Below are positions 2,225 to 48,117 of a stretch of DNA of 64,000 nt, one piece after another (positions within the stretch are counted from its first letter, which is position 1; the number at the start of each line of letters is the position of its first letter). Origin of the DNA: a virus; IMG/VR virus record IMGVR_UViG_3300025009_000051, positions 119,717-183,716 of that record, one strand, 5' to 3'. Both the position numbers and the translations under genes were made by a program. A model generated the notes under the pieces. That model ran no database searches and was not told the origin of the DNA. It saw nothing but the letters and a program-made list of their open reading frames with translations.

Positions 2225-3973
2225 TTATTTGATTAATTGATTGATTATGTCTTTAAAAATTGATTGTTTTTTATTTCCAATATATTTTGCTTCATATTTT
2301 ATTCCAGCATTTATTGCATTTGTTATTACCATTTTATCTTCTAATACATCATACATATTAATATCAAATGTATCTGCTCCGAGAAGGTAATATATGTTTG
2401 CAACATTTTCTTGGCCCATCCTATGAATTCTATCCTCCAGCTGCAAAAGATCGTCTGGCATCCAGCTTAATTCTACAACTGCTAAATTTGAAGCGGCTGT
2501 TAGATTAAATCCAACTTTACCACTATCTATATTTAAAACGATTAATTTTTCATTTGGATCATCTTGAAATTTTTGTACATATTCTTGTCTTTGTTCAACA
2601 GGTGTACCACCATAAATTCTATTACATTTAAAATGATCTGCTATTGAATCCAAGATCGCCACATGATAAGCGAAACAAACCAGCTTTTGCCCACTTTGCA
2701 AAAAAGTATATATCCATTCAATAACATTGTTTAATTTTCCATGGGCGGTTAATTGTCTTAAATAATTTGCTCGAATTAATGCTTCATATTTTGATACTTT
2801 ATTAATTGCTTCTATCTTCTCTAATTTAGAATTTAAAGCATTTAGAACTGTAGGTATTTCATCATCATTTATATCTTCATTTACTACTTTATTTTTTAAA
2901 ATAAAATTAACCAAATCTCTTTTAGCTAATTCATATTCTTTTCTATTATCAATGTCTAAATATACAATAGAACGAACTTTATCAGGTAATTCTTTTAATA
3001 CATCTTTTTTATTTCTTCTGATATAACAAACTTGTCGTAATTTTTCGTGTAATTCTTCAAGATTACTTGCTCCATATTCCCACCCATAATATCCTTCTTT
3101 AGCATCGCAGTATCTTAATTTAAAATTTTGAGAACCTCCAAAATCTTGTAATCTATCTAATATTTTTAATTGATGTACCAAATCTAAAGGAGCATCTCCC
3201 GTAGGAGTTCCTGTCAATAACATTTTATATTCTACTTTTCTGGATAGTGTGAATACAGCTTTAGATCTTTGTGATTTATGTGATTTGACGAAATGTGATT
3301 CATCTACTATCAATAATTTTATTTTTTTCTTTTCTAATATTTTTAAATACTTTGTCAAAGCTTGATAATGAATGATGATTATATCTGCTTCAAAATTATC
3401 TTTTTTATTATTTCGTATAACAGATATTCTTTCTTTATCAATATCAATCCATTTTAATATTTCATAATACCAATTTAATTTTAAACTATTTGGACATATA
3501 ATGGTAATAGGATATTTACCTAATGTAAAAAAAGAAGCAATTGCTTGAGGAGTTTTACCTAATCCTTGTTCATCGCCTAATAATACTCTTTTATTTTTAA
3601 GAATGTATTGAACCCCAGCAGCTTGAAAAGGTCTTAAGGTTAGTTTTAAATTTGGTATTATAAAATCAGTAGATTCGGCAGCACTTAAAATTTTATTTTC
3701 TTTGTTCAGTTCTTTTAATTGTTCTACAAATACCTTAAATTCTAAAGGAGTTTCAAAATTATAATAAGAACAAAAAGCATCTAGATATTCAAGAGTAGTT
3801 TTATTTAAAGGAACTTCCCAAAAATATTCATTCCAATTAAATTTTCTACCGGGTATTTTTTTAATATTTTCTTTTAATTCAGCAGACATTTCATCATTAA
3901 AGAAATGAGGATAATGAATGGTAACATAATGTTTTTTTCTTCTTTCAATTAATTTTATATGATAATCGCTCAT
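2225..3973 (-). CDS. SNF2-family (SMARCAL1/UvsW-like) DNA helicase
   Basis: 582-residue superfamily 2 translocase. Motif I is GDEQGLGKT (133-141), motif II is DESH (224-227), motif III is TGTP (254-257). The C-terminal RecA lobe holds DSGKVGFNLTAAS and motif VI DRIHRMGQ. The N-terminal ~75 residues with IPGRKFNWNEYFWEVPL resemble the HARP-type fork-binding segment of SMARCAL1-like enzymes. Such proteins anneal single strands and remodel forks; T4 UvsW plays this part in recombination-dependent replication. It overlaps the upstream protease gene by ATGA, so the two are translationally coupled. Confidence 0.9.
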   Translation of the reverse strand: MSDYHIKLIERRKKHYVTIHYPHFFNDEMSAELKENIKKIPGRKFNWNEYFWEVPLNKTTLEYLDAFCSYYNFETPLEFKVFVEQLKELNKENKILSAAESTDFIIPNLKLTLRPFQAAGVQYILKNKRVLLGDEQGLGKTPQAIASFFTLGKYPITIICPNSLKLNWYYEILKWIDIDKERISVIRNNKKDNFEADIIIIHYQALTKYLKILEKKKIKLLIVDESHFVKSHKSQRSKAVFTLSRKVEYKMLLTGTPTGDAPLDLVHQLKILDRLQDFGGSQNFKLRYCDAKEGYYGWEYGASNLEELHEKLRQVCYIRRNKKDVLKELPDKVRSIVYLDIDNRKEYELAKRDLVNFILKNKVVNEDINDDEIPTVLNALNSKLEKIEAINKVSKYEALIRANYLRQLTAHGKLNNVIEWIYTFLQSGQKLVCFAYHVAILDSIADHFKCNRIYGGTPVEQRQEYVQKFQDDPNEKLIVLNIDSGKVGFNLTAASNLAVVELSWMPDDLLQLEDRIHRMGQENVANIYYLLGADTFDINMYDVLEDKMVITNAINAGIKYEAKYIGNKKQSIFKDIINQLIK

Positions 3974-5886
3974 TTAATCTTTTTCTTAAATTTTTCTGGT
4001 AAGTAATCAAAATATGCGTCTTTAGATTTTACTTCTGATAATTCTGTTTCATATCCATTTTCTTGTAAAATATTAATCACATCTTCAGATAAAAGTAGAG
4101 TATTTTCAAATAATTTTTCTGCTATTAATTCTACTAACTGTTTATAATCTTTAATGAGTTTTTCAGTTTCTTTGGAACATTCTTTTATTATTTTTCTTAT
4201 CTCTTTATTCTGTTCTTTGATAGAAGAATAAGCATATTCAGATTCTTGTTTATTTTGAACATAAATTAAATCATCATTTAATCCGTGCTTATAAATTAAT
4301 GCAGCCAAATTTGTAGCAGAAGAAATATCGGACGCAGTTCCAGTTGAAATGTTTTCACTCCCAAAAAATATTTTCTCTGATATTGGTCCAGCTAAATAAC
4401 ATTTTATTTTTGATAATATTAATTTTTTGTTTGATTCATGATCCGGATATTCAGTAAAAGTTAATCCAAGACTATCTGCATCTTTATCTTGTAATGCGAT
4501 ATATTTTGGAATTAATTTGGTATCAATAATATTTACTACCGCGTGCGCGGCCTCATGTATAGAAGTAATGTATTTAATATTTTTATCAATTGAAATCGAA
4601 TCAGAAATATATGGTTTTATAATCCATTGATCATTTTTAAACAAAAGAATATTATTATTCTCTTTGTCATAATCTAAGCTTGAAGAAGTTGTATTTTCTT
4701 CTAATAATTCACTGATAATTAATTCTTCAACATACTGTTTTATATTTTTCTTTATTCTCATTCCTTGAGTAGGAAATACAAATTTGTCATATAAAAAATC
4801 TACAAAATTATCACTATATTTAAATTCAATTAATTTTATTTCTGATAAGAGTTTTTTAATTACTTTGATATAATCTTCTCTTTTAAATGAATAATAAATA
4901 ATATGATTGTGACCTAATCTCGCAATGTGTTCTGGATTAAAATATGTTAATAACGCATCTTTAATATTTTTAATAGTGATTTTAGAAGTAATATCATACA
5001 ACATATCCGCGGGTATCTTTTCAAATTCAAAACTCATGGTATATAATTGATCCAAATTACCAATCACAAATATCAAACTTTTTCTTAAATCATATACTTT
5101 TGGTTTTAAATCTAGAATAGCATGTTTAGTTAAAATATCAATTATTTCTTTGATAGAGTATTCTTTTTTTCTATTTTCTAATAACTTTCTATATTCTAAT
5201 CTATGATGAATTTTTATTTGCCTTAAAAATTCATCATATATAAAAGATTTTCTTTTTTCTTTTAGTGAAATTGTTTTTCGTTTAGTAATATTAATGTTAG
5301 ATCCATAATCATATTCAAGTAATAAATCAAAATATTCAGAATAATTTTCTTCAGGTATTATATTTTTATTTAATTCAATTCCTCTATTTTGTATTTCTTC
5401 TAAAAATTTAATAAATTCTTTAATGCTCGAATGTGAACTATTATACATTGAAACAGTTTCTCCGGTATCTATAAACTTCCAAATAAAACTTTTATTTGAA
5501 TTGCTTTCGATATTATATTGATTTCTTATTGCCGCATATTGAATGTCATCAAATACTATTATTGGAGTATTTGTGTCATACATATAACTCATCTTATCAA
5601 ACTTATAATATAAAGTACCATCGTCTTCATGATAAGAAGGAGCCATATCAAAAGAAGAATATAAATGAGATAAATCCAATTTTTTAACTAAAGAAGATAT
5701 CAACTCACTTTTACCTACCCCTGTCATTCCCCATAAATTTATAATGGTAGGAAATGTTTGCTTATCTCGATATAGAAACCAAGGTTTAATGAAATTAATT
5801 AATTGATCAATTTGATAATCAATTCCGACAAATTCTTCTTTTAATTCTTTTTTGACTGTTTCTAATAAAATTATTTTTTCTTGCAT
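3970..5886 (-). CDS. FtsH-like protein: AAA+ ATPase fused to an M41 metalloprotease domain
   Basis: 638 residues. The N-terminal AAA+ module has Walker A GMTGVGKS (53-60) and a Walker B-like IIVFDD near 110. The C-terminal M41 peptidase has H444-E-A-A-H448, and its third zinc ligand lies in STGTASDISSATNLA (D520), nearly identical in pattern to FtsH. Unlike bacterial FtsH there are no transmembrane segments, and the long region between ATPase and peptidase does not look like the usual second-region-of-homology block. It is therefore a soluble, diverged FtsH-type protease. It is coupled to a SNF2 helicase downstream and preceded by another AAA+ ATPase. Target proteins are unknown; host-factor or defence-protein degradation is inference. 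Confidence 0.85.
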   Translation of the reverse strand: MQEKIILLETVKKELKEEFVGIDYQIDQLINFIKPWFLYRDKQTFPTIINLWGMTGVGKSELISSLVKKLDLSHLYSSFDMAPSYHEDDGTLYYKFDKMSYMYDTNTPIIVFDDIQYAAIRNQYNIESNSNKSFIWKFIDTGETVSMYNSSHSSIKEFIKFLEEIQNRGIELNKNIIPEENYSEYFDLLLEYDYGSNINITKRKTISLKEKRKSFIYDEFLRQIKIHHRLEYRKLLENRKKEYSIKEIIDILTKHAILDLKPKVYDLRKSLIFVIGNLDQLYTMSFEFEKIPADMLYDITSKITIKNIKDALLTYFNPEHIARLGHNHIIYYSFKREDYIKVIKKLLSEIKLIEFKYSDNFVDFLYDKFVFPTQGMRIKKNIKQYVEELIISELLEENTTSSSLDYDKENNNILLFKNDQWIIKPYISDSISIDKNIKYITSIHEAAHAVVNIIDTKLIPKYIALQDKDADSLGLTFTEYPDHESNKKLILSKIKCYLAGPISEKIFFGSENISTGTASDISSATNLAALIYKHGLNDDLIYVQNKQESEYAYSSIKEQNKEIRKIIKECSKETEKLIKDYKQLVELIAEKLFENTLLLSEDVINILQENGYETELSEVKSKDAYFDYLPEKFKKKIK

Positions 5887-5899
5887 TGTTTAAATTTAA

Positions 5900-7192
5900 T
5901 TAAAAATGTGTTGGTATATCATCAATCGTAATTATTTCTGCAGCTTTAAGAAATCCAATATCAGTTTTTACCTTGCCTACCATCTTGCTATTTTGTTTAG
6001 AATACTCAGGAAGTTTATCAAAAATTTCTGTCATTATTTTTACTGTTTCGGCTAAAATTTCGAGAGTTATATCTTTTTGATTTGCCACTGCATATGAAAG
6101 AGAAGCGTTTACTAATTCTCGAATTTGTGCTCCTGTCAAATTATTAACTATACTTATAATTAATTTTTCTTTCTGTAAATCTTCATTTGAATATATTCCT
6201 TTAGCATACAATTTAAAACAATTATAAGCATACTCGCCTGTCAACGACCCCATGTGTATTATTTTATCAATTCTTCCAGGACGCTTTAAAATTCTATTTT
6301 CTATTACTTCTGGATAATTTGTTGACATTAATATATATGCTCCTTCTACCATTCTTGGTTGGTCCATACCATCTAATACATTTAATAAGGTAGATCCTCC
6401 TTCATTTAATATATATTCCGCATCTTCAAAAATAAGTAGAGTGGATACTTTATACTTCTTGCACAGTTGTAAATGACCAACAACCACTCGCATATTATTT
6501 GCATAAATTACACATTTTTCTTTGGCATATTTTTGAGCTAATTTTATTCCTGTAATTGTTTTACCTGTTCCGGGTTCTCCAATAATTAATCCTTTTCTAA
6601 TTCCGGGCATATTAAATCTTGTAAATAATTCAACATTGTTGAAATAAAAATCAATATCCTTTTCTATTATACTAAAATTTTGATGAATTACTTCGTTGCT
6701 AAACAGTTTATCTTTTTTGGTATATATCAATTGGCCGGTTCCTGTCATTTGAAGATCATATATTCCTACTTTTGGTTTTTGCGAAAGTCGAAACACTTGT
6801 TCAGACATTTTTAAATATTTCATCCAAGTTTCTTTTTCTCCAACCACAAGTGATTCAACTCCTCCTGTTTTCTTTAGTCCTGACCACCAGTATGAAAACA
6901 ATAAAAATGAATCATCAGAAAAAACAACTTTAAAAATTCCAGTCTTATCTGTGGCTGAAATTGCTTTCTTTTTATTTAATTTTACATTAATCGAAAAACA
7001 TGGAATCACTTGAGAAGAAATTGGAATTATGTCTTTAACATATAATTTTTTCCGTTTAGAAAATATTTTAAGATTTTCTAATTCTGAATACCCCATTCTA
7101 TAAGAATAATCCGCAATCAGAAAATCTTTAGTTGGTTTAATACTTCTATACAATTCCATTAATTCTTTATTTACACTCTGCAACTTTGTCAT
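5900..7192 (-). CDS. AAA+ ATPase of the FtsH/Cdc48-like clade, no protease domain
   Basis: 430 residues. Walker A GEPGTGKT (205-212), Walker B LLIFEDAE (252-259), sensor-1 STN (about 290-292) and the arginine-finger loop RPGR (304-307) are all present, so it should be an active hexameric unfoldase or remodeller. The first 200 residues form an unrecognised substrate or adaptor domain. It lies 14 bases upstream of the M41 protease gene in the same direction, suggesting the two work together, for example as unfoldase and protease or as separate assembly factors. Confidence 0.85.
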   Translation of the reverse strand: MTKLQSVNKELMELYRSIKPTKDFLIADYSYRMGYSELENLKIFSKRKKLYVKDIIPISSQVIPCFSINVKLNKKKAISATDKTGIFKVVFSDDSFLLFSYWWSGLKKTGGVESLVVGEKETWMKYLKMSEQVFRLSQKPKVGIYDLQMTGTGQLIYTKKDKLFSNEVIHQNFSIIEKDIDFYFNNVELFTRFNMPGIRKGLIIGEPGTGKTITGIKLAQKYAKEKCVIYANNMRVVVGHLQLCKKYKVSTLLIFEDAEYILNEGGSTLLNVLDGMDQPRMVEGAYILMSTNYPEVIENRILKRPGRIDKIIHMGSLTGEYAYNCFKLYAKGIYSNEDLQKEKLIISIVNNLTGAQIRELVNASLSYAVANQKDITLEILAETVKIMTEIFDKLPEYSKQNSKMVGKVKTDIGFLKAAEIITIDDIPTHF

Positions 7193-7556
7193 AATTTCTT
7201 ATTATTTCAGTTTTTAATTTTAATTCTCCTAATTCAGTTAAATTATATATAATTTCATCCTTTATTTTATTACAGGTATATTTTCCTCCAAATGATCCGA
7301 CAGAGTTAGTAATGGTAAGAAAAAATCTATGATACACAATGTGTTCTGACTTCATAAGAATATACAATCCTAATTCAAAAATACCGTTACAAATTAAAGA
7401 ATTTAAAAGAAGAGTATCTTTAGAATTAGAAGTGTATATTTCTACATATGGAGATCTTTCAGAATAACTTATTTTCTTTATTGATAGAATTTGAAAAGGT
7501 ATTTTATTCTTTTCTATTTTTACAATAAAGACAGATGGAATTTCATTTATTGTCAT
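7167..7556 (-). CDS. Hypothetical protein, 129 aa
   Basis: The gene overlaps the start of the AAA+ ATPase gene by 26 bases, so translation is probably coupled and it may be a partner of the ATPase. The product is rich in beta-type residues. No motif recognised. Confidence 0.7.
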   Translation of the reverse strand: MTINEIPSVFIVKIEKNKIPFQILSIKKISYSERSPYVEIYTSNSKDTLLLNSLICNGIFELGLYILMKSEHIVYHRFFLTITNSVGSFGGKYTCNKIKDEIIYNLTELGELKLKTEIIRNYDKVAECK

Positions 7557-31454: not shown

Positions 31455-31595
31455 ATGAAAACAAAACAAAATATTCAATTAACATTAGATATTGAATTAA
31501 TAGATTGGTTAAAACAAAATTGCATAAAAAAATCAGAATTAGTAAATAAATTATTATTAGAATATAAAAAAAATAAAGAGCATGCTAAAATTTAA
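31455..31595 (+). CDS. Ribbon-helix-helix-like small protein, 46 aa
   Basis: ATG at 31455. A short strand (NIQLTLDIELIDWLKQ) precedes two helices (KKSELVNKLLLEYKK), the pattern of Arc/MetJ-type repressors, and resembles the protein at 33287. It overlaps the start of the endonuclease gene by 14 bases, so it may regulate that gene. Confidence 0.6.
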   Translation: MKTKQNIQLTLDIELIDWLKQNCIKKSELVNKLLLEYKKNKEHAKI

Positions 31596-32703
31596 TACTA
31601 AATATTATTGTGTATGTGGATTTTCACATAAAAGTAAATTATCTTTAGGTCAACACAGAAGCAGATGTGAAATATTTAAAAATTATCTTTTATCAATATC
31701 AAATGAAATTGTTTTTGAAAAATATCTAAAACAAGGAATAGCAATCTCCAGGTTGGCACAAGAATATCAAATTGATAGAAGTATAATAGAAAAAATAATT
31801 AAACAACATAAAATTCCAATTAGAACAGGAAAAGAATCTCAAAATTTGAATTCTGTAAAACAAAAAAGAATAAATACTCAATTAGCAAAGTTCGGTGTAG
31901 AAAATTGCATGCAAAATAAAGACATTTATAAAAAATTTAAAGAAACATGCATTAAAAAATATGGTGTAGAATATCCAATGCAATCAAACGAAATAAAAGA
32001 AAAATTAAAAAAAATAATATTATAAAAATATGGTGTAGAAAATACATTTCAAAATGAATTAATAAAAGAAAAATCGAAAAAAACAATGTTAGAAAAATAT
32101 GGAGTAGACCATAATACAAAATTTTTAAATTGGGAAGAAAACACAAAAAAAAGAAATTTAAAAAAATATGGTTGTGAATGGCCAATGCAATCACAAATAA
32201 TAAAAAATAAAGCTAAACAAACAAAAAAAGAAATATATGGAAATGAATATTATACCAATCCTACTAAAGCATTAAAAACAAAAATAAAAAATAATATAAC
32301 TCAAAATAAATCATACATTCCATCAATATATTCTCAAAATTTATTTTGGAAAATTTATGAGCAATTAGAAAATAAAGAACACATTTATTTTGCCAAATTA
32401 AATAAAGAATTTGGAAAATATAATTCAATAAATAATAAATATTATTTTTATGATTTTGTAGATACAAAAAATAAAAAGATAATTGAATTTAATGGAGATT
32501 ATTGGCATATGAATCCAAATAAATTTAAATCTGCAGATATACATCCAACTTCAAAATTATTAGCAGAAGAAATATGGTATAAAGATCAACAAAAAATAAA
32601 TTTTATTACATCAATTGGTTTTAAAGTTTTAATTATTTGGGAGGCAGAAGCTAAACAAAATGAAAGTATAATTATTAATAAGTGCATTAATTTTTTAAAA
32701 TAA
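31582..32703 (+). pseudogene. Homing-endonuclease-like gene interrupted by one in-frame TAA
   Basis: A single frame runs 31582-32703 with one stop at 32023-32025. The protein has an N-terminal Cys/His finger, a helix-turn-helix-like segment (GIAISRLAQEYQIDRSIIEKI), several KYGVE-type repeats that occur in phage mobile endonucleases, and a C-terminal VSR/EDxHD-like nuclease core IIEFNGDYWHMNP. The stop falls exactly where a Lys or Glu is expected at the start of a KYGVEN repeat, so one base change from AAA or GAA explains it. The downstream part has an ATG at 32086 and could be made as a separate nuclease. Confidence 0.8.
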
Positions 32704-37218: not shown

Positions 37219-39240
37219 TTATTTGTAATTAATTAATTTTTTAAAATCATTTATTTCAATACAAATAATTCCCATTTTAGTAGCTTTAACTTCTTTTGAA
37301 CTTCCACTACCAATTTGTTTCATTATTAAATGTGTTACATTTTTATTTATTCCATCAGAAACAATTCCACCGTTTTCTACAATGAAATTTTCTAATCCTT
37401 TATCTCGAATTCCTGTAAAAACGGTATTATATGATTTTAATGAATCTGATAATATTTCTTGTTTCTTTTCTTCTTCTTTAAATTTTATATGTTTTAAAAT
37501 TGATTGTTCAAATTCGTCATATAATTTAATATTATCATAATAATCAAATGCTAATTCTGCACCTATTCCAGGAATTAATAAAAAATTATGATGAAATTGT
37601 GGATTATCTAAAATCAATTTTAATTGTTTACTTCCCAATTTTTTAAAACAAGAACTCGCGTGCATTAATTTAGCTTTATCACAATTTTGTAATTTAGAAT
37701 GAATGTTGGTATAAACAATTTCGGCTTTTCTTTCTCCAAATCTTTCTAACTTTAATAAATCCTCTTTAGTCAAATCTAATATTTTTTGAATTGAATTATA
37801 TCCATTTTCAATAAATAATTTTATTGTGGGTTCACCTAATTCATCTACAGATAAAATATTAAAGAATGCAAATATTTTTTGTATTACTTGTTCAAAACAA
37901 TTTGGATTTTTACAAACCAGATTTACATAATTATCATCCCAATCTAGATCTCCTCCACAAGCTGGACAATACATATTTAAAGATTTATCTTGACTCTCCA
38001 TTTCTCGAATTTCCATTAAATCTTCTTTGGCTTTTTGATACTCTTTTGAATTATTGAACATATACACAAATGGAATTGGATGATTATTAACTGCAATTAT
38101 TTTTGGAATAACTCCTCCACTTCTTATAATTGTGATTTTTTCTCCTTCGAATAATTTAAATTTATCAATATAACTTGCATTGTTTAATGTTACACTTGAA
38201 ATATTTACTCCTTCAATATTGACCGGTTTAATTTTTGCGACATAACTCATATCACCAAATTTACCTATTGATTCAAGTATTGATTTAATTTCTGTTTCTG
38301 CTCTTACTTCAAAATTACCTTTATATGCTCTTGCATAATTTGGATTCTGTGAGGATTTATTTCTTCCAATTTTAGCTCTTAATTCTTTATCATTTACTTC
38401 AATGACTAATCCATCAATTTCATAATCTGTCTTCCAATTATTATAAAGATTCAATAAAAATTCTTCATTAAGATCTTTAAAATAACTTAAACCATACGGT
38501 ACTTTATAAATATTAAGTGTATTACAATATTCAATTTGGACCGCTTTGTCTTCTTCTATTCCATTTATCACTGCTCCAAACATTATATAATCTGCATATT
38601 TTAATTCTTCTAGAATGTCATCTGCATTTATTAACCCAGAAACAGAATTTCGTGCATTTGAAGGTTCTTCTTTTCCTTTTTTGATTTGTTCTTGTTTAAA
38701 TATCTCAAAATTCTTTCTTGATATTATGCATTCTCCAATGAGATATACATCTTCTGTTTCTGATTTATTTAAGTTATGATTAATCAATTTAAAATGTTCC
38801 TTAGAATTTCTTCCATAATCTTTATCTCCTCTTGTCCATACATTCAGTATTTTCTTTTCGTTTAACAATGCAAGGCCATCTAATTTTGGAGAAATACAAA
38901 GTAAAGTATTTTCAGGAATGCCTTGAAGTCTCATCCAATTTTTTATTTCAATTAAAGATTTAACTTTAGTCATTGAAGCCATTACAATCGGAAGCTTTTC
39001 TTTTCTTGGATCATTATCATCCATTTCAAAACCAACTTTGTTTAATAAACTTGATTCAGGATAATTTTCTTCTAAATATTCCACGATTGTATCATAAACA
39101 AAATCAGAAACAATAGCGTTTGATAATCTATATTCCTGATTCATTTTTGATATTAACTCTTCCAATTCTTTTTGTGATAAAGAAGAAATAATATTTACTA
39201 TTTCGTCTTTTGTAGTGGTAATTTTTAATTTATTTATCAT
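37219..39240 (-). CDS. ligA: NAD-dependent DNA ligase
   Basis: 673 residues from the ATG at 39240, full LigA length. The adenylation domain has the nucleophile K119 in SPKLDGLAL and LIGECIIS. The OB fold, a four-cysteine zinc finger (CPACGG ... CKNPNC), helix-hairpin-helix repeats and a C-terminal BRCT domain (~600-673) follow. Phages more often carry ATP ligases; this one consumes NAD+, which makes the NAD-related pair at 13905-16296 relevant. It is driven by the promoter at 39262-39293. Confidence 0.93.
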
Positions 39241-39261
39241 ATTCTTTTTATTTTCTATATA

Positions 39262-39293
39262 CAAATATACAGTTATTAAATGAAGTAAACAAA
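39262..39293 (-). promoter_or_regulatory. Bacteroidota-type promoter (TTTG-N20-TATATTTG)
   Basis: Both elements present on the minus strand, 21 bases before the LigA ATG; also argues against a longer LigA start. Confidence 0.75.
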
Positions 39294-42190: not shown

Positions 42191-43375
42191 TTAATGAGAT
42201 TTAAAATTAAATACTGGTTTCAAAGTATCGATTATTTCTACCGTATCCACAATTGCATTTTTTATTTCTTCAATTGATTTATATGCTTGAGGAGCTTCAT
42301 CTAAGGTTGATCTGACTACTGAAGTAGAATACACATTTTTCATTAATTTTTTGAATTCATTCATATCAATTAATTCTTTAGCTTTACTTCTGCTCATCAA
42401 TCTACCGGCACCGTGAGGAGCAGAATAATTCCAATTTTCATTTCCTTTACCTTTACATATTAAAGATCCGTCACTCATATTAATTGGTATCAATAATTGT
42501 TCACCTAATTCAGCACTAACTGCTCCCTTTCTTAATATCATTCTGCTGAAATCAATATAATTGTGAATTGTTTCAAATTTATGCTTAAAATTAAAATTCA
42601 TTTCTCTTTCAATTATCTTGGCCATTGTTAATCTATTTAACATTGCATATTCTTGGACAATTTTCATATCATTTAAATAATCATTGAAATCTGTACCAAT
42701 TAAAAATGCTAATTCTTTATCTGCTGAAGGTTTTTGAATTTTCTTTAATTCTGAATCTATATCTTTTGATCTTCCTTCTGCTTTTAATTTTTTTATTAAA
42801 TTTTCTTTTATCTTTCCCATTTCATTTAAATTCTGAAATGCTTTATCTTGATAATATTTGCATACATCTTGACCTAACTTTCTACTTCCAGAATGGATAA
42901 TTAAATAATTATCTCCTGTTAATTCTGATCTACCTATCTCGATGAAATGATTGCCGCCCCCCAAGCTTCCAATGGATAACATTGCTCTTCCTATATCAAC
43001 ATGCTTAGCACATTTTAATTTAGAAAAATCAAATTTTACTTGAGAGTCATGATGAATGTTAAATCCATGTGGAACTTTTTCTTTAATTACTCTATCAAGA
43101 TTTTCAAAATTAATATCTTTATTTTTTAATTGAATTGTTAAAAGACCACACCCAATATCCACTCCAACTAAATTAGGAGTAATTTTATCTGCTACTGGCA
43201 TTGTAGTTCCAACAGTGCAACCTTTACCCGCATGCCCATCTGGCATTATTCTTATTTTAGAATTTTGATAAGGTGCATAATTGCATAACTTTTTTATTTG
43301 CTCGAAAGCTTCATTTTCAAAAGTTTCAGCAAAAATTATTGTTTCAACTCCAAGATTATTCTTAATTATTTTCAT
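42191..43375 (-). CDS. rtcB: RNA-splicing ligase RtcB
   Basis: 394 residues, close to bacterial RtcB (~400). MPDGHAGKG, the metal-site DIGCG (D73, C76), GGGNHFIEI (H143), IIHSGSR (H161) and the nucleotide-binding SAPHGAGR are all visible. RtcB joins 2',3'-cyclic-phosphate or 3'-phosphate ends to 5'-OH ends using GTP and Mn2+, the type of ends left by anticodon nucleases. It has its own promoter. Confidence 0.93.
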   Translation of the reverse strand: MKIIKNNLGVETIIFAETFENEAFEQIKKLCNYAPYQNSKIRIMPDGHAGKGCTVGTTMPVADKITPNLVGVDIGCGLLTIQLKNKDINFENLDRVIKEKVPHGFNIHHDSQVKFDFSKLKCAKHVDIGRAMLSIGSLGGGNHFIEIGRSELTGDNYLIIHSGSRKLGQDVCKYYQDKAFQNLNEMGKIKENLIKKLKAEGRSKDIDSELKKIQKPSADKELAFLIGTDFNDYLNDMKIVQEYAMLNRLTMAKIIEREMNFNFKHKFETIHNYIDFSRMILRKGAVSAELGEQLLIPINMSDGSLICKGKGNENWNYSAPHGAGRLMSRSKAKELIDMNEFKKLMKNVYSTSVVRSTLDEAPQAYKSIEEIKNAIVDTVEIIDTLKPVFNFKSH

Positions 43376-43505: not shown

Positions 43506-44000
43506 ATGGCAGAATTCATAGATCCTCAAGAATTAATGTACACCAGCTTCGAACCTATGTTGAAACATAGATTTAGAATGGAAATCGATGGGATACCAAC
43601 ATATATGATAAAAAAAGTAGATAAACCTCAAGCTACTTCTACTGAAGTTGAGATTCCTCATATAAATGTTTCAAGTTTTGTTAAAGGCAAGACTAAATGG
43701 TCAAGCGAAACAACTTTAGAGCTATACAATCCAATTTCACCCAGTGGAACTGCAATAGTAATGGAATGGTTTAGAATGCATCATGAATCTGTAACAGGTA
43801 GAGATGGTTACTTTGACATGTACGCTAAAGATGTGACAGTAGAAGTACTCGGACCAGTTGGAGATATTGTTGAAAGTTGGACATATAAAGGTGCTTGGAT
43901 AAAATCTATGGAATTTGGTGATTTAGATTGGGGCACAGAAGCAGACCAAACTATGATTACTTTAACCTTGCAATATAATTTCCCCGTGTTTAATTATTAA
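43506..44000 (+). CDS. Tail tube protein (T4 gp19-like)
   Basis: 164 residues, matching T4 gp19 (163 aa). Features are the opening HRFRMEIDGIPTYMIKKVDKP, central beta strands around VKGKTKWSSETTLELYNPI, and the C-terminal MEFGDLDWGTEADQTMITLTL typical of contractile tail tubes. It forms the inner tube of the tail. Monocistronic, with late promoter and a strong terminator. Confidence 0.9.
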   Translation: MAEFIDPQELMYTSFEPMLKHRFRMEIDGIPTYMIKKVDKPQATSTEVEIPHINVSSFVKGKTKWSSETTLELYNPISPSGTAIVMEWFRMHHESVTGRDGYFDMYAKDVTVEVLGPVGDIVESWTYKGAWIKSMEFGDLDWGTEADQTMITLTLQYNFPVFNY

Positions 44001-44026: not shown

Positions 44027-44052
44027 AACTCACAATAAAATGTGAGTTTTTT
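44027..44052 (+). terminator. Rho-independent terminator of the tail tube gene
   Basis: AACTCACA-ATAAAA-TGTGAGTT followed by four more T residues: an 8-bp perfect stem, 6-base loop and T tract. Confidence 0.85.
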
Positions 44053-46130
44053 CATATCTTACAAATTACTTCATATTTTTGATTCGATTTTTTATTGAAG
44101 TGTGAAGTATTGTTTAAGATTTTAAATTCTTCTTTCAACTCTAATTTGTTCATTAAATCAGAACTCATATTTAGGTAGACATTATTGAAAGAATAAAACT
44201 TCTTAATAAATGTTTCTTGCCATTCTTCAAAAGATTCATATTTGATATTATCTGAATAAATTTCTGTTTCAAAGAATGGGATTGAAGTGAACACCAAATT
44301 ATACTCCTTTTCATATCGAAAATCTTCAAATTTACAATTATAAAGTTGAATTTGATTTTCATTTAATTTTAATTCTTCAATCAAATTTAATCTTAATTCT
44401 AATAATTCTTGAAAGGTGTCTTTATTGGGTTCAATTCCAATATATGTTCCTTCAGGATATTTTGACATAAAACCAAGCAATCTGCCACCAAATCCTGCAC
44501 ATGGATCAATAACAATTGGATTTATTTTATCTTTCAATAATTCTTGATAAATACTCGCTGCAAGCAAAGGTTTGAAGAATGAAATGGTAATTCTTCGAGC
44601 TGATAGGCCTCGAATTAATTGATGCAAGCTAAAATCAAATATCTCATTCGAATCATTGCAACCAATTCTATATTTTATCACATCTTGTAGAAGAGTATTT
44701 TCATACCAAGCTTGAACTGGAGTTAAATTTCCAGAATAAGAAGAATTCCAATAAGATTTAAAATTTGATTTTAGATAATTATTTCCAATTGGAGAGATAT
44801 TATTTCTAAAAATTTTATCTTTATAGATTCTGTTTAAGTCATAATTTTGAATTGTGGCAATAACTTCAGATAATTTTTCAGTCTGCTCAAGATAAGGAAA
44901 TTCTGGTTGAAAGGTTCTAATAAATTTGAATAGAAGAGGAATATATCTTATTAATTTATCTTTTCCTTTTTTATCAATATATCGTTTAAAGTATTCTTTA
45001 GAAATTATTTTCTGATAATAAGAAATTGAATAATCAGGCCGATAAGAATTTAATTGTAATGTTTCTTCATTTATTTCGGCTTTTAATTGTTCTGCTCTTA
45101 TTCTATATAAACTATAATTTGATTGTTCTATTATTTTAGTTTTTTCAAAATCATTTATAGCAGAATTAATTTGAATTATTGATAAATTTTCAAGTTTATT
45201 TGGATGATAAAATATGCCATCTATTTCATATATGTTGTCATTTATTTTTATATCAAATTCTTTATTTTCATATATAAAACTTCCAGTTGCATGCTCTAAA
45301 TTATTTAATATATTCATTTCATCTTTAGAAGGTATTATTCGAAAAGATTGTTTTTTCTTTTTTTGAGTAGTTTCTTTAATTTTTTTTACCAATAAAGATT
45401 TTCTTTTAAACCAATCATTTGAATGTAAATAATTTTCTGCATCATATCTTTCTAAACAAGTTTCTTTATATTTTAACCTATTGTTAAAATCTTTGTTACC
45501 GTATTTTTCTTTTTTTGTGTTTTTACTTTTTTCTTTAACATCTGTTCTTTGAAAACTATACTCTACATCATATAATTCTAAATTTTTTCTTTTTTGCTCT
45601 TCTTTAAATAGTTTTGTTTTAAATATATTATCTTCTCCATATTTTTCTTCAATTGTTTCTTTCATTTTATTCCACATATTCACATCTAATCTAGAACATT
45701 CCTTAGAACAATATTTCTTTGGACTATTTATTTTAACTTTAAATTCTGACTTACAATTTGGACAAATTCTAATTTCTGTTTTTATTTCTTTTGTTCTATA
45801 TTCATATTGGCATTTAGGAGAACAAAATTTAATTTTAGAATTTATTTTAACTTCTAATTCTTTATTGCAATTTTTGCAATTGATTGTTTTTCTTGGTATT
45901 TTTGTTTGTAATTTATTTGAATGAAATTGAACATATTCAGAAAATCCTTTATTTAAATTTATCCAAGAAGTTTGTTGACCACATCCACATTTACATAAAG
46001 GAATGATTCCGTTATAATCATATTTTAGGCTATAATCATAAGAAGGCATTTTATGAATAAATCTTATATGAGAAGACAATTTTCCAGAAGTGGAAAAAGA
46101 TTCATTACATATTTTACAAGTATGATTCAT
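44052..46130 (-). CDS. Fusion of zinc-finger/VSR-like nuclease and DNA methyltransferase
   Basis: 692 residues from the ATG at 46130. In order: a C2H2 finger (C5, C8, H21, H26), three further Cys-rich ribbons (~46-50, 85-107, 123-145), repeats like those of phage homing endonucleases (~160-240), a nuclease core EIDGIFYHPNK (~303-311) equivalent to the EFNGDYWHMNP core of the broken gene at 31582, and a C-terminal methyltransferase with SAM motif IDPCAGFGGRLLG (541-553) and motif IV TSIPFF (615-620). Motif IV departs from the usual S/N/D-PPY, so base specificity is unclear. Nuclease plus methylase in one chain recalls type IIG restriction or a self-protecting mobile endonuclease. Own promoter at 46135. 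Confidence 0.8.
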   Translation of the reverse strand: MNHTCKICNESFSTSGKLSSHIRFIHKMPSYDYSLKYDYNGIIPLCKCGCGQQTSWINLNKGFSEYVQFHSNKLQTKIPRKTINCKNCNKELEVKINSKIKFCSPKCQYEYRTKEIKTEIRICPNCKSEFKVKINSPKKYCSKECSRLDVNMWNKMKETIEEKYGEDNIFKTKLFKEEQKRKNLELYDVEYSFQRTDVKEKSKNTKKEKYGNKDFNNRLKYKETCLERYDAENYLHSNDWFKRKSLLVKKIKETTQKKKKQSFRIIPSKDEMNILNNLEHATGSFIYENKEFDIKINDNIYEIDGIFYHPNKLENLSIIQINSAINDFEKTKIIEQSNYSLYRIRAEQLKAEINEETLQLNSYRPDYSISYYQKIISKEYFKRYIDKKGKDKLIRYIPLLFKFIRTFQPEFPYLEQTEKLSEVIATIQNYDLNRIYKDKIFRNNISPIGNNYLKSNFKSYWNSSYSGNLTPVQAWYENTLLQDVIKYRIGCNDSNEIFDFSLHQLIRGLSARRITISFFKPLLAASIYQELLKDKINPIVIDPCAGFGGRLLGFMSKYPEGTYIGIEPNKDTFQELLELRLNLIEELKLNENQIQLYNCKFEDFRYEKEYNLVFTSIPFFETEIYSDNIKYESFEEWQETFIKKFYSFNNVYLNMSSDLMNKLELKEEFKILNNTSHFNKKSNQKYEVICKI

Positions 46131-46134
46131 ATAG

Positions 46135-46166
46135 AAAATATACAAAAATTAATTTCTAAAAACAAA
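46135..46166 (-). promoter_or_regulatory. Host-type promoter (TTTG-N20-TATATTTT)
   Basis: Minus strand, immediately before the ATG at 46130; the last base of the -7 box deviates. The transcript would be nearly leaderless. Confidence 0.5.
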
Positions 46167-46168
46167 AA

Positions 46169-46319
46169 TCATTTTATATCTTCGTATTCAATTATTATTT
46201 TTGGAATATAATCTTTTGGTAATTTATTAATTATTCCTCTGATAAGAAAAAGATTTAGTTCTCATCATAGATAAAATAATATCATCTGATTTTATTTGTT
46301 CTAAAAATAAAAAAATCAT
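46169..46319 (-). pseudogene. Frameshifted small gene downstream of the TnpB-like gene
   Basis: The ATG at 46319 overlaps the TnpB-like stop (ATGA). The frame reads MIFLFLEQIKSDDIILSMMR and then stops at 46227. Removing one T from the run near 46245 joins it to a second frame ending LPKDYIPKIIIEYEDIK at 46169, giving a sensible 49-aa protein. Either a real frameshift, a homopolymer error in the sequence, or a non-coding region that could include a guide-RNA scaffold. Confidence 0.45.
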
Positions 46320-47650
46320 ATAAAAGAGTATAAATCTATATAACTCTTTCTGCTATGATTTAATCTGAAAACACTCGCTTCATGCATTTTAATTGCATCT
46401 TCGAGTGAAACTCGATATTTAAATTTCAAGTTTTTTACAAACAAAAATAATTTTTTCCAATCTTCAATCCATTTAATCCCCATTTCCTTCCATTGGTGTT
46501 GAATTGAACTTTTTAGATTAAAGACTGGATAGAAACCATTTTTGTTTTTCTTTACCTTCCATTCATAGCCCCTTCGGGCTATCTCTATGCTTGCATTTAC
46601 TGAATCTGTGAAATCATGTTGAAGATTTCCAATGAAAGATGAATATGCAGGATTGACTGAATGAAGGTTGATTTGATATATATTTAATCTCTTTTTAAGA
46701 TTTCGAGTGAATAATTCTCTCTTCCACAAATTTCTATTCTTCCTATTTCCAAGATGATTATATTTTTGATCTGAACTTAATTTCATCTTGAATTTCAGGT
46801 CTTCTATAAAGACATTCTTGCATTGAAAATGCTTCGCAAGAATTGAAATTGATTTTGAGATTTGAATTGTTTCGAATTTTAATTTATTTTGGAAATATTT
46901 CATCTTTGATGAATTTGAACTCGAGGCTGAATCTAAAATTTTATTAAAGATAGGTCGAAGAGAATATTCTTGAGTATGAATAACTCTTCCATCTTCAAGG
47001 ATTGAAATTCCGATGTTATCGGGATTCAGATCGATTCCAATATATCTTTCATTCTTCAAATCTAAATTCTCTTCATCTTTAAATTCTTCGAAGGAAATAT
47101 AAATTTCTTTCTCTGTCAATCTGACAGAATAAGTATAACCTTCATTTTCATTTAACATTTCTAATCTTTCCAACACCTTCTTATAATTATTTCTTAGATT
47201 TGGAAGATTCAGTTCAAATCTATATTTTAGATTTAATTTGAAAATTATTTGATTATTTTCAATAATATCTAAAATGAATTGGCGGTTCCCGCCTTTTAAT
47301 TTTTCACCTTGAATATTCAAAGGAAGCAATCTCTTTTCTTTCAATTCTTCTTTTGTCATCTTTCCTTTCATTCTTTCAATAAAATTCTTCTTACCACCAA
47401 AAACAATTTTCTTCTCTTTAAATCTTAAATGAAGCTGATTAGCTTCCATAATTGCACATTGTTGCAACCAACTATTTGAATTTTCAATTCCTTTCAATTC
47501 TTTCAGACTATGCCTGATATTTGTCTGCTTCATCTTCTCTTGATATCTATTAAAAGCATATCTTACAATCAATGAATATTCACGACGAAGCTCTTTCAGC
47601 TTCTCATAAAATCTTTCATTTGCTGTGTATGGAATTTTAATAGTTATCAT
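46316..47650 (-). CDS. TnpB-like RuvC nuclease lacking the zinc finger
   Basis: 444 residues. RuvC-I is YIGIDLNPDNIGISI (D207), RuvC-II is NVFIEDLKFK (E283), RuvC-III is FTDSVNASIEIARRG (D349), so the catalytic triad is intact. Between II and III the canonical VDPAYTS-like NPAYSS is present, but the CxxC...CxxC zinc knuckle of TnpB is replaced by about ten residues without cysteine. The N-terminal half matches the wedge/REC layout of TnpB/Cas12. No TnpA gene is nearby. TnpB proteins cut DNA guided by an RNA encoded at their 3' end. Confidence 0.8.
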   Translation of the reverse strand: MITIKIPYTANERFYEKLKELRREYSLIVRYAFNRYQEKMKQTNIRHSLKELKGIENSNSWLQQCAIMEANQLHLRFKEKKIVFGGKKNFIERMKGKMTKEELKEKRLLPLNIQGEKLKGGNRQFILDIIENNQIIFKLNLKYRFELNLPNLRNNYKKVLERLEMLNENEGYTYSVRLTEKEIYISFEEFKDEENLDLKNERYIGIDLNPDNIGISILEDGRVIHTQEYSLRPIFNKILDSASSSNSSKMKYFQNKLKFETIQISKSISILAKHFQCKNVFIEDLKFKMKLSSDQKYNHLGNRKNRNLWKRELFTRNLKKRLNIYQINLHSVNPAYSSFIGNLQHDFTDSVNASIEIARRGYEWKVKKNKNGFYPVFNLKSSIQHQWKEMGIKWIEDWKKLFLFVKNLKFKYRVSLEDAIKMHEASVFRLNHSRKSYIDLYSFI

Positions 47651-47730: not shown

Positions 47731-48117
47731 TTATATCTTTTTATATTTTTTGTAAGAACATATAATATTAAAAGATGTAGAATTTAAAATTTCTTTAAAA
47801 TCTTCTCCCATTTCTTTTATTTCTTCATCGTCTTCGTCATACTTCCAATTAATAGTTATATTTGTATAATCTTGAAGAATCAATAAAATTTGAAATATAT
47901 ATTTGTGTGATGTACTATTAATCAAATTAAAATGAAAATTTACATTTATATCCGTCTTTATTTCAGATAAATTTTCCTCTAACCAAAGTATGCAATTCTC
48001 ATACATATTATCCGGAACTTGTTTAACTGAGTTTCCTGTGAAGCTATATTCTCCTGTTTCATTATTTAAAATGATTAAAGGAGTTTCTTTAGTTTTTTTT
48101 ATATATAAGTCTTCCAT
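47731..48117 (-). CDS. SiaC-family (DUF1987) protein
   Basis: 128 residues, full family length. It matches DUF1987 in pattern: LYIKKTKETPLIILNNETGEYSFTG, then WLEENL, the NSTSHKYIF segment (67-74) that corresponds to the phosphorylated loop of SiaC, and WKYDEDDEEIKEMGEDFKEIL. In Pseudomonas SiaC controls a diguanylate cyclase and is switched by a kinase/phosphatase pair. No such partners are visible here. This is a rare find in a phage. Confidence 0.8.
   Translation of the reverse strand: MEDLYIKKTKETPLIILNNETGEYSFTGNSVKQVPDNMYENCILWLEENLSEIKTDINVNFHFNLINSTSHKYIFQILLILQDYTNITINWKYDEDDEEIKEMGEDFKEILNSTSFNIICSYKKYKKI

Follow-up and report, generated by a model that had tools for sequence, protein, structure and literature searches.

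Homing endonucleases are thought to avoid cleaving their own genome by interrupting or recoding the site that they recognize. The EDxHD homing endonucleases are typified by I-Bth0305I, and Mom of phage Mu is a known anti-restriction modifier. Free-standing homing endonuclease genes located near essential phage genes, and the shuffling of their domains, have already been described (PMC10448857). We analyzed a stretch of 64,000 nucleotides, hereafter the window, belonging to a virus record of 183.7 kb (G000). With moderate confidence, we consider that one of its genes encodes an EDxHD homing endonuclease with its own fused methyltransferase (MTase), which would probably shield an essential target.

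Domain organization and conservation of the protein

The following features were assigned to the locus:

44052..46130, minus strand: whole gene of the EDxHD homing endonuclease-methyltransferase, 692 aa, ATG at 46130
45432..46130, minus strand: targeting module, aa 1-233, by likeness to the N-terminus of L174, the endonuclease at the tail-tube site of the nearest relative
46053..46124, minus strand: C2H2 zinc finger, aa 3-26 (Pfam, 8e-4)
45642..45893, minus strand: two Cys4-type zinc ribbons, aa ~80-163, the second YacG-like (3e-5), from the sequence
45396..45671, minus strand: DUF7487 stretch with NUMOD-like repeats, aa 154-245 (2e-9, over its cut-off)
45081..45338, minus strand: EDxHD/VSR-like nuclease domain, aa ~265-350, from conserved catalytic residues and a PDB profile match
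44052..45023, minus strand: methyltransferase unit including its N-terminal helical part, aa ~370-692, from fold matches
44481..44507, minus strand: SAM motif I, DPCAGFGGR, aa 542-550, from the family alignment
44271..44288, minus strand: catalytic motif IV, TSIPFF, aa 615-620, from the family alignment
43506..44000, plus strand: tail tube gene (gp19-like), a conserved neighbour with the insertion in its 3' flank
44027..44048, no strand assigned: hairpin AACTCACA TTTTAT TGTGAGTT, between the convergent tail-tube and endonuclease-MTase genes

The gene is an intact, real reading frame, for which a mechanical ORF finder placed the start five codons earlier, at a TTG at 46145. The hairpin is a possible shared terminator of the two convergent genes. 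The original prediction had placed a C2H2 finger, Cys ribbons, homing-endonuclease repeats, a nuclease with the core EIDGIFYH, and a methyltransferase in one frame, and this was confirmed by Pfam, by profile comparison, and by an AF2 model with a pLDDT mostly >90 across residues ~270-692. When the window protein was searched alone, only chance zinc-finger matches were obtained among PDB sequences, and Pfam left the nuclease uncalled and matched the MTase weakly. The NUMOD-like repeats of the DUF7487 stretch are common to phage homing endonucleases, and NUMOD3 and ROS_MUCR matches were found in the targeting region of relatives.

Scanning of viral contigs yielded about 25 distinct EDxHD-MTase proteins, and since these diverse phage proteins share the same domain order, the combination cannot be due to chance. 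The scan patterns covered motif I and one further MTase motif and excluded the nuclease residues and motif IV; the conservation of motif I is thus partly an artefact of the search. Residues E271, D293, H309, and D327 were kept in all 24 full-length members, and the nuclease is thus not degenerate; degeneration would have spoken against the original prediction. More broadly, the nuclease core (E271, D293, E302-I-D304-G, H309, and D327) is invariant or nearly so across the family, and all catalytic residues were retained at pairwise identities down to 34%. The top PDB match of the family profile (A6) was I-Bth0305I (PDB 3r3p, E 1.3e-4), and Pfam Vsr was matched in 11 of the 25 members. Neither of the two enzymes looks degenerate at the sequence level. 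The nuclease and MTase trees of the family disagree, the nuclease alignment being short, and the two halves may therefore not always be inherited together.

A search of one genome per species in bacteria and archaea found no EDxHD-MTase protein and only two distant MTases, and no matches were obtained when the 10-kb neighbourhood was compared with phage records by megablast. One member, L017 4023-5981 (plus strand), is legible only if TGA is read as tryptophan, and thus belongs to a recoded phage.

The C-terminal half is predicted to be an amino-type DNA methyltransferase and is not obviously an RNA enzyme. A plain PDB fold search with the whole AF2 model returned generic SAM MTases only. Among viral proteins, some of the best fold matches are the N4-cytosine DNA MTases of pithovirus, aligned over ~380 columns and covering the whole MTase unit. 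An RNA methyltransferase, the other outcome that had been foreseen as damaging to the prediction, was disfavoured: Methyltransf_15 was matched weakly in nine of the 25 members, whereas sister families match DNA methylase profiles instead (N6_N4_Mtase, E as low as 7e-10), and annotated DNA MTases are among the top fold matches of the whole unit. This assignment to DNA carries the caveat that weak Pfam matches to an RNA-cap MTase profile also exist.

Motif IV reads TSIP(Y/F) in nearly the whole EDxHD-MTase clade, the first proline of the canonical (D/N/S)PP(Y/F/W) being replaced, and TSPPY or SPPY in the sister families. This deviation, together with the weak Pfam scores for the MTase, would fit a catalytically dead MTase fold serving as a DNA-binding or base-flipping module in target binding or specificity. 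We regard such a role as very unlikely, because SAM motif I is invariant over the ~25 sequences, as are other residues, S616 and P618 of motif IV are present in 25 of 25 members, and active N6-adenine RNA methyltransferases, for instance Erm/KsgA, work with a motif IV of the (N/S)-I-P-Y type. In the reading that we favour, the MTase is predicted to be active.

Genomic sites and mobility of the gene

In all 22 relatives with complete, readable upstream DNA, the EDxHD-MTase gene lies immediately 3' of a gp23-like major capsid gene and on the same strand; in two of the 22 (L009 and L017), another endonuclease is located between the two genes. The capsid gene at this site encodes the phrog_138 major head protein and is preceded by a constant scaffold-like gene. 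We fetched 80 relatives of the capsid gene, roughly 60 of which had >1 kb of downstream sequence, and found the EDxHD-MTase gene behind the capsid gene in three of these ~60 (L122, L134, and L157). In L113 and L150, an EDxHD enzyme without MTase (Mom-type, see below) occupies the identical spot. Clean pairs of occupied and empty sites with an intact capsid gene were recovered (L019/L115, L025/L121, L032/L112, and L004/L092), and the inserts in close pairs are barely longer than the reading frame and directly follow the stop codon or the terminator of the capsid gene. The capsid and element trees conflict strongly, a result obtained with few AU replicates; the clearest case is that the L020 and L025 elements are close sisters, while the L025 capsid is sister to the L019 capsid. 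At the 3' end of the capsid gene, no consistent extra divergence, which would hint at a recoded target, was found between occupied and empty phages, in a mixed comparison made without an empty-empty control.

The sporadic occurrence, the clean insertions, and the conflicting trees indicate that the EDxHD-MTase gene is a mobile, free-standing element of the homing endonuclease type, and both this mobility and the architecture are well supported by the comparative sequence data. The original proposal was thus supported in part: a mobile endonuclease and DNA methyltransferase in one polypeptide was sustained, the motifs being intact, the neighbour an essential gene, and the gene polymorphic between phages, and methylation of its own target and harm to competing phages are putative. 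The comparison with relatives lacking the gene, which had been suggested as a way to find the insertion point, revealed clean empty sites right behind the capsid gene. A fixed, vertically inherited, domesticated phage gene with a role in defence or linked to the capsid would account for the invariable location of the gene next to the capsid gene in the 22 relatives. However, most capsid relatives do not carry the gene, the trees conflict, the window copy is at a different locus, and the occupied/empty pairs already contradict fixation, so that this explanation is barely credible in comparison with a mobile homing endonuclease.

The window copy lies antisense just past the tail-tube gene and not at the capsid site. 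In most other tail-tube relatives with downstream sequence, a gp26-like gene is found within a few hundred bases. The nearest relative of the window phage, contig 3300033146_002002, whose tail tube is 60% identical, carries a 567-aa endonuclease (L174) at the same spot and in the same orientation. The first 234 aa of L174 share ~45% identity with the window protein, and what follows is another type of EDxHD half, which lacks an MTase. At the capsid site of this relative, we found an EDxHD-MTase gene (L011) that is the best match to the nuclease-MTase half of the window protein, and the capsid site of the window phage is occupied by an enzyme with zinc fingers, an EDxHD nuclease, and a Mom-like domain (L171 4570-6258, minus strand, G000:C1). 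The targeting modules of the four enzymes pair by site (46% identity, z 55, and 42%, z 60), the remaining pairs giving z<5. The MTases of the window protein and L011 are 61% identical (z 122), and the nucleases of the other pair, the enzymes lacking an MTase, 46% (z 28). These alignments indicate that the nuclease/modification halves have been reciprocally swapped between the window phage and its nearest relative and that the window copy is chimeric. Targeting is thus separable from the half that would cut and modify.

Other genes were also noted in the window. The gene adjoining the endonuclease-MTase gene, between the tail tube gene and the gp26-like gene, encodes a 444-aa protein (46316-47650, minus strand) with RuvC-like motifs, a weak TnpB match (TIGR01766, 3e-4), and no Pfam match. 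A broken EDxHD/VSR-type endonuclease (DUF7487 and DUF559) with no MTase is split over two ORFs at 31582-32703 (plus strand). The window phage also encodes an RtcB-like RNA ligase (42191-43375, minus strand), a SiaC-family protein (47731-48117, minus strand), and a NAD-dependent DNA ligase (37219-39264, minus strand).

Alternative modification domains and other nuclease partners

In the EDxHD enzymes without MTase, the C-terminal domain has a GNAT fold. When this domain was modelled alone (mean pLDDT 78) and compared with 350,542 PDB chains, the top two fold matches were phage Mu Mom (8bv8, E 2e-7 and 1e-6), above all acetyltransferases. Pfam Mom was matched in one member (3e-5, slightly below the curated cut-off). 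PDB sequence searches with the domain alone did not find Mu Mom, and the Mom identity is thus a structural inference. The GNAT-fold C-terminal domain with Mu Mom as its top PDB fold match is that of phrog_3339 homing endonucleases (L122 1561-2223, plus strand). The Mom-like domain of L174 is divergent and may be degenerate. Mom-type EDxHD enzymes were present in 411 of 50,697 phage records, including the cultured Klebsiella phages RaK2 and Muenster, in which they are annotated as homing endonucleases; the modification half of our proposal can thus already be tested. With a Mom-like domain at the end of the alternative half, two unrelated DNA-modification folds share one position, and the picture is broader than that of the original prediction, namely a modular family in which a Mom-like domain is an alternative to the MTase.

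In many contigs, the same MTase family, with TSPPY as motif IV, also forms the C-terminal part of proteins that start with a LAGLIDADG endonuclease. At 27 loci of this outer group, the gene immediately follows that of an unrelated head protein, phrog_2522. In a survey of 59 phages whose phrog_2522 capsid proteins share at least 91% identity with the query, a LAGLIDADG-type endonuclease was found behind the capsid gene in 28 and none in 31. MTase motifs were borne by eight of these 28 endonucleases, and others are ~310-aa LAGLIDADG enzymes without a modification domain. Inspection by eye disfavoured an intein origin of the fusions, as the endonuclease, with its HTH repeats, is N-terminal and outside the MTase. 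A third group combines zinc fingers, a probable PD-(D/E)XK nuclease, and the MTase, and its members L051, L054, L074, L077, L080, L085, and L088 are all directly 3' of a gene for a ~1,000-aa protein without assigned function. Free-standing members of the MTase family were found in the phages Vibrio 2.058.O, Bacteroides DAC19, Staphylococcus Alsa_1, and Mammaliicoccus PMS2. At the site behind the phrog_2522 capsid gene, we also observed two differing zinc-ribbon proteins with an unfamiliar C-terminal domain (L304 2348-3931 and L330 4998-6932).

Taken together, these fusions tentatively suggest that homing endonucleases on essential genes repeatedly gained a fused DNA-modification enzyme, forming portable restriction-modification homing elements whose target is kept intact and chemically shielded and whose cassettes recombine freely. 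The amino-MTase would have been joined to EDxHD, to LAGLIDADG, and probably to a third nuclease, and the Mom-like domain to Hef-type enzymes. Modification is not obligatory, since homing endonucleases without a modification domain hold comparable sites.

The modification enzyme might instead be a general-purpose MTase that modifies many sites in the genome as an anti-restriction measure, so that the phage benefits and retains the selfish gene while the homing site itself is unprotected. The free-standing phage members of the family and the anti-restriction role of the alternative partner, Mom, in Mu are consistent with this explanation. We nevertheless find it rather unlikely, as it leaves unexplained both the repeated fusion to homing nucleases of different classes behind capsid genes and the joint travel of the modification and nuclease halves onto new targeting modules. 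Alternatively, the MTase or Mom-like domain could block rival homing endonucleases aimed at the capsid or tail-tube region. Several homing endonucleases indeed compete for one post-capsid site, as in the L009 tandem and the Mom-type enzymes of L113 and L150, and LAGLIDADG types lie behind the other, phrog_2522, capsid gene. Such guarding would require that modification by one enzyme stops another from cutting, and it overlaps largely with self-protection; we judge it improbable as a separate explanation and retain protection of the enzyme's own target as the preferred reading. In L009, the endonucleases behind the capsid gene (3494-7245, plus strand) are in tandem, with the Mom-type first and the MTase-type second.

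Proposed mechanism and comparison with known systems

In the mechanism that we propose, the N-terminal zinc-finger/NUMOD-like module would pick the site, which lies 3' of the tail-tube gene here and 3' of the major capsid gene in relatives. The EDxHD nuclease would cut the corresponding locus in any co-infecting phage that has no copy of the gene, and repair of the break would then copy the gene into the cut locus. As the insertion is beside and not inside the essential gene, the recognized sequence may persist in the phage's own genome, where the fused methyltransferase would methylate it and spare the resident phage from cutting. We infer each of these activities, namely cleavage, methylation, and the guarding of the own target by methylation. 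If this is true, a fused modification enzyme would be a third route to avoiding self-cleavage, by which a selfish gene could target those sequences, capsid genes for example, that are most conserved and cannot be disrupted. Such an enzyme would also link the worlds of homing and restriction-modification enzymes, supply modular long-site methyltransferases, and provide a concrete mechanism of competition between co-infecting phages.

Searches of the window protein with PADLOC and NCBIfam gave no restriction-modification match. In the papers that our literature search covered, we found no fusion of a homing endonuclease to a methyltransferase or to Mom; the original prediction, too, knew of no described family with this order.

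The protein resembles EDxHD/VSR-like homing endonucleases (I-Bth0305I, Hef-type, and phrog_3339) in its nuclease fold and catalytic residues, its NUMOD/zinc-finger targeting, its free-standing position beside an essential phage gene, and its empty-site alleles. It differs from them in its C-terminus, an amino-DNA methyltransferase, in the place of which the MTase-less EDxHD enzymes that we examined have the GNAT-fold (Mom-like) domain. With type IIG/IIB enzymes (MmeI, BcgI, and TstI), it shares a nuclease and an amino-MTase in one chain and a targeting element presumably common to both activities. In contrast to these enzymes, an EDxHD homing nuclease replaces the usual type II nuclease domain, the zinc-finger/NUMOD-like targeting module is N-terminal with no TRD after the MTase, and the gene is a mobile phage gene beside structural genes, for which a long single-site target is expected.

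The MTase unit, its helical N-terminal part included, is the same as in the N4-cytosine DNA MTases of pithovirus, Vibrio phage 2.058.O, and Staphylococcus phage Alsa_1, which are free-standing whereas the MTase is fused here; sister sequences have SPPY where the clade has TSIPY. Finally, the LAGLIDADG-MTase fusions behind the phrog_2522 capsid gene carry the same MTase family at the C-terminus and occupy the same type of location, but have another nuclease class, helix-turn-helix modules, and the canonical TSPPY.
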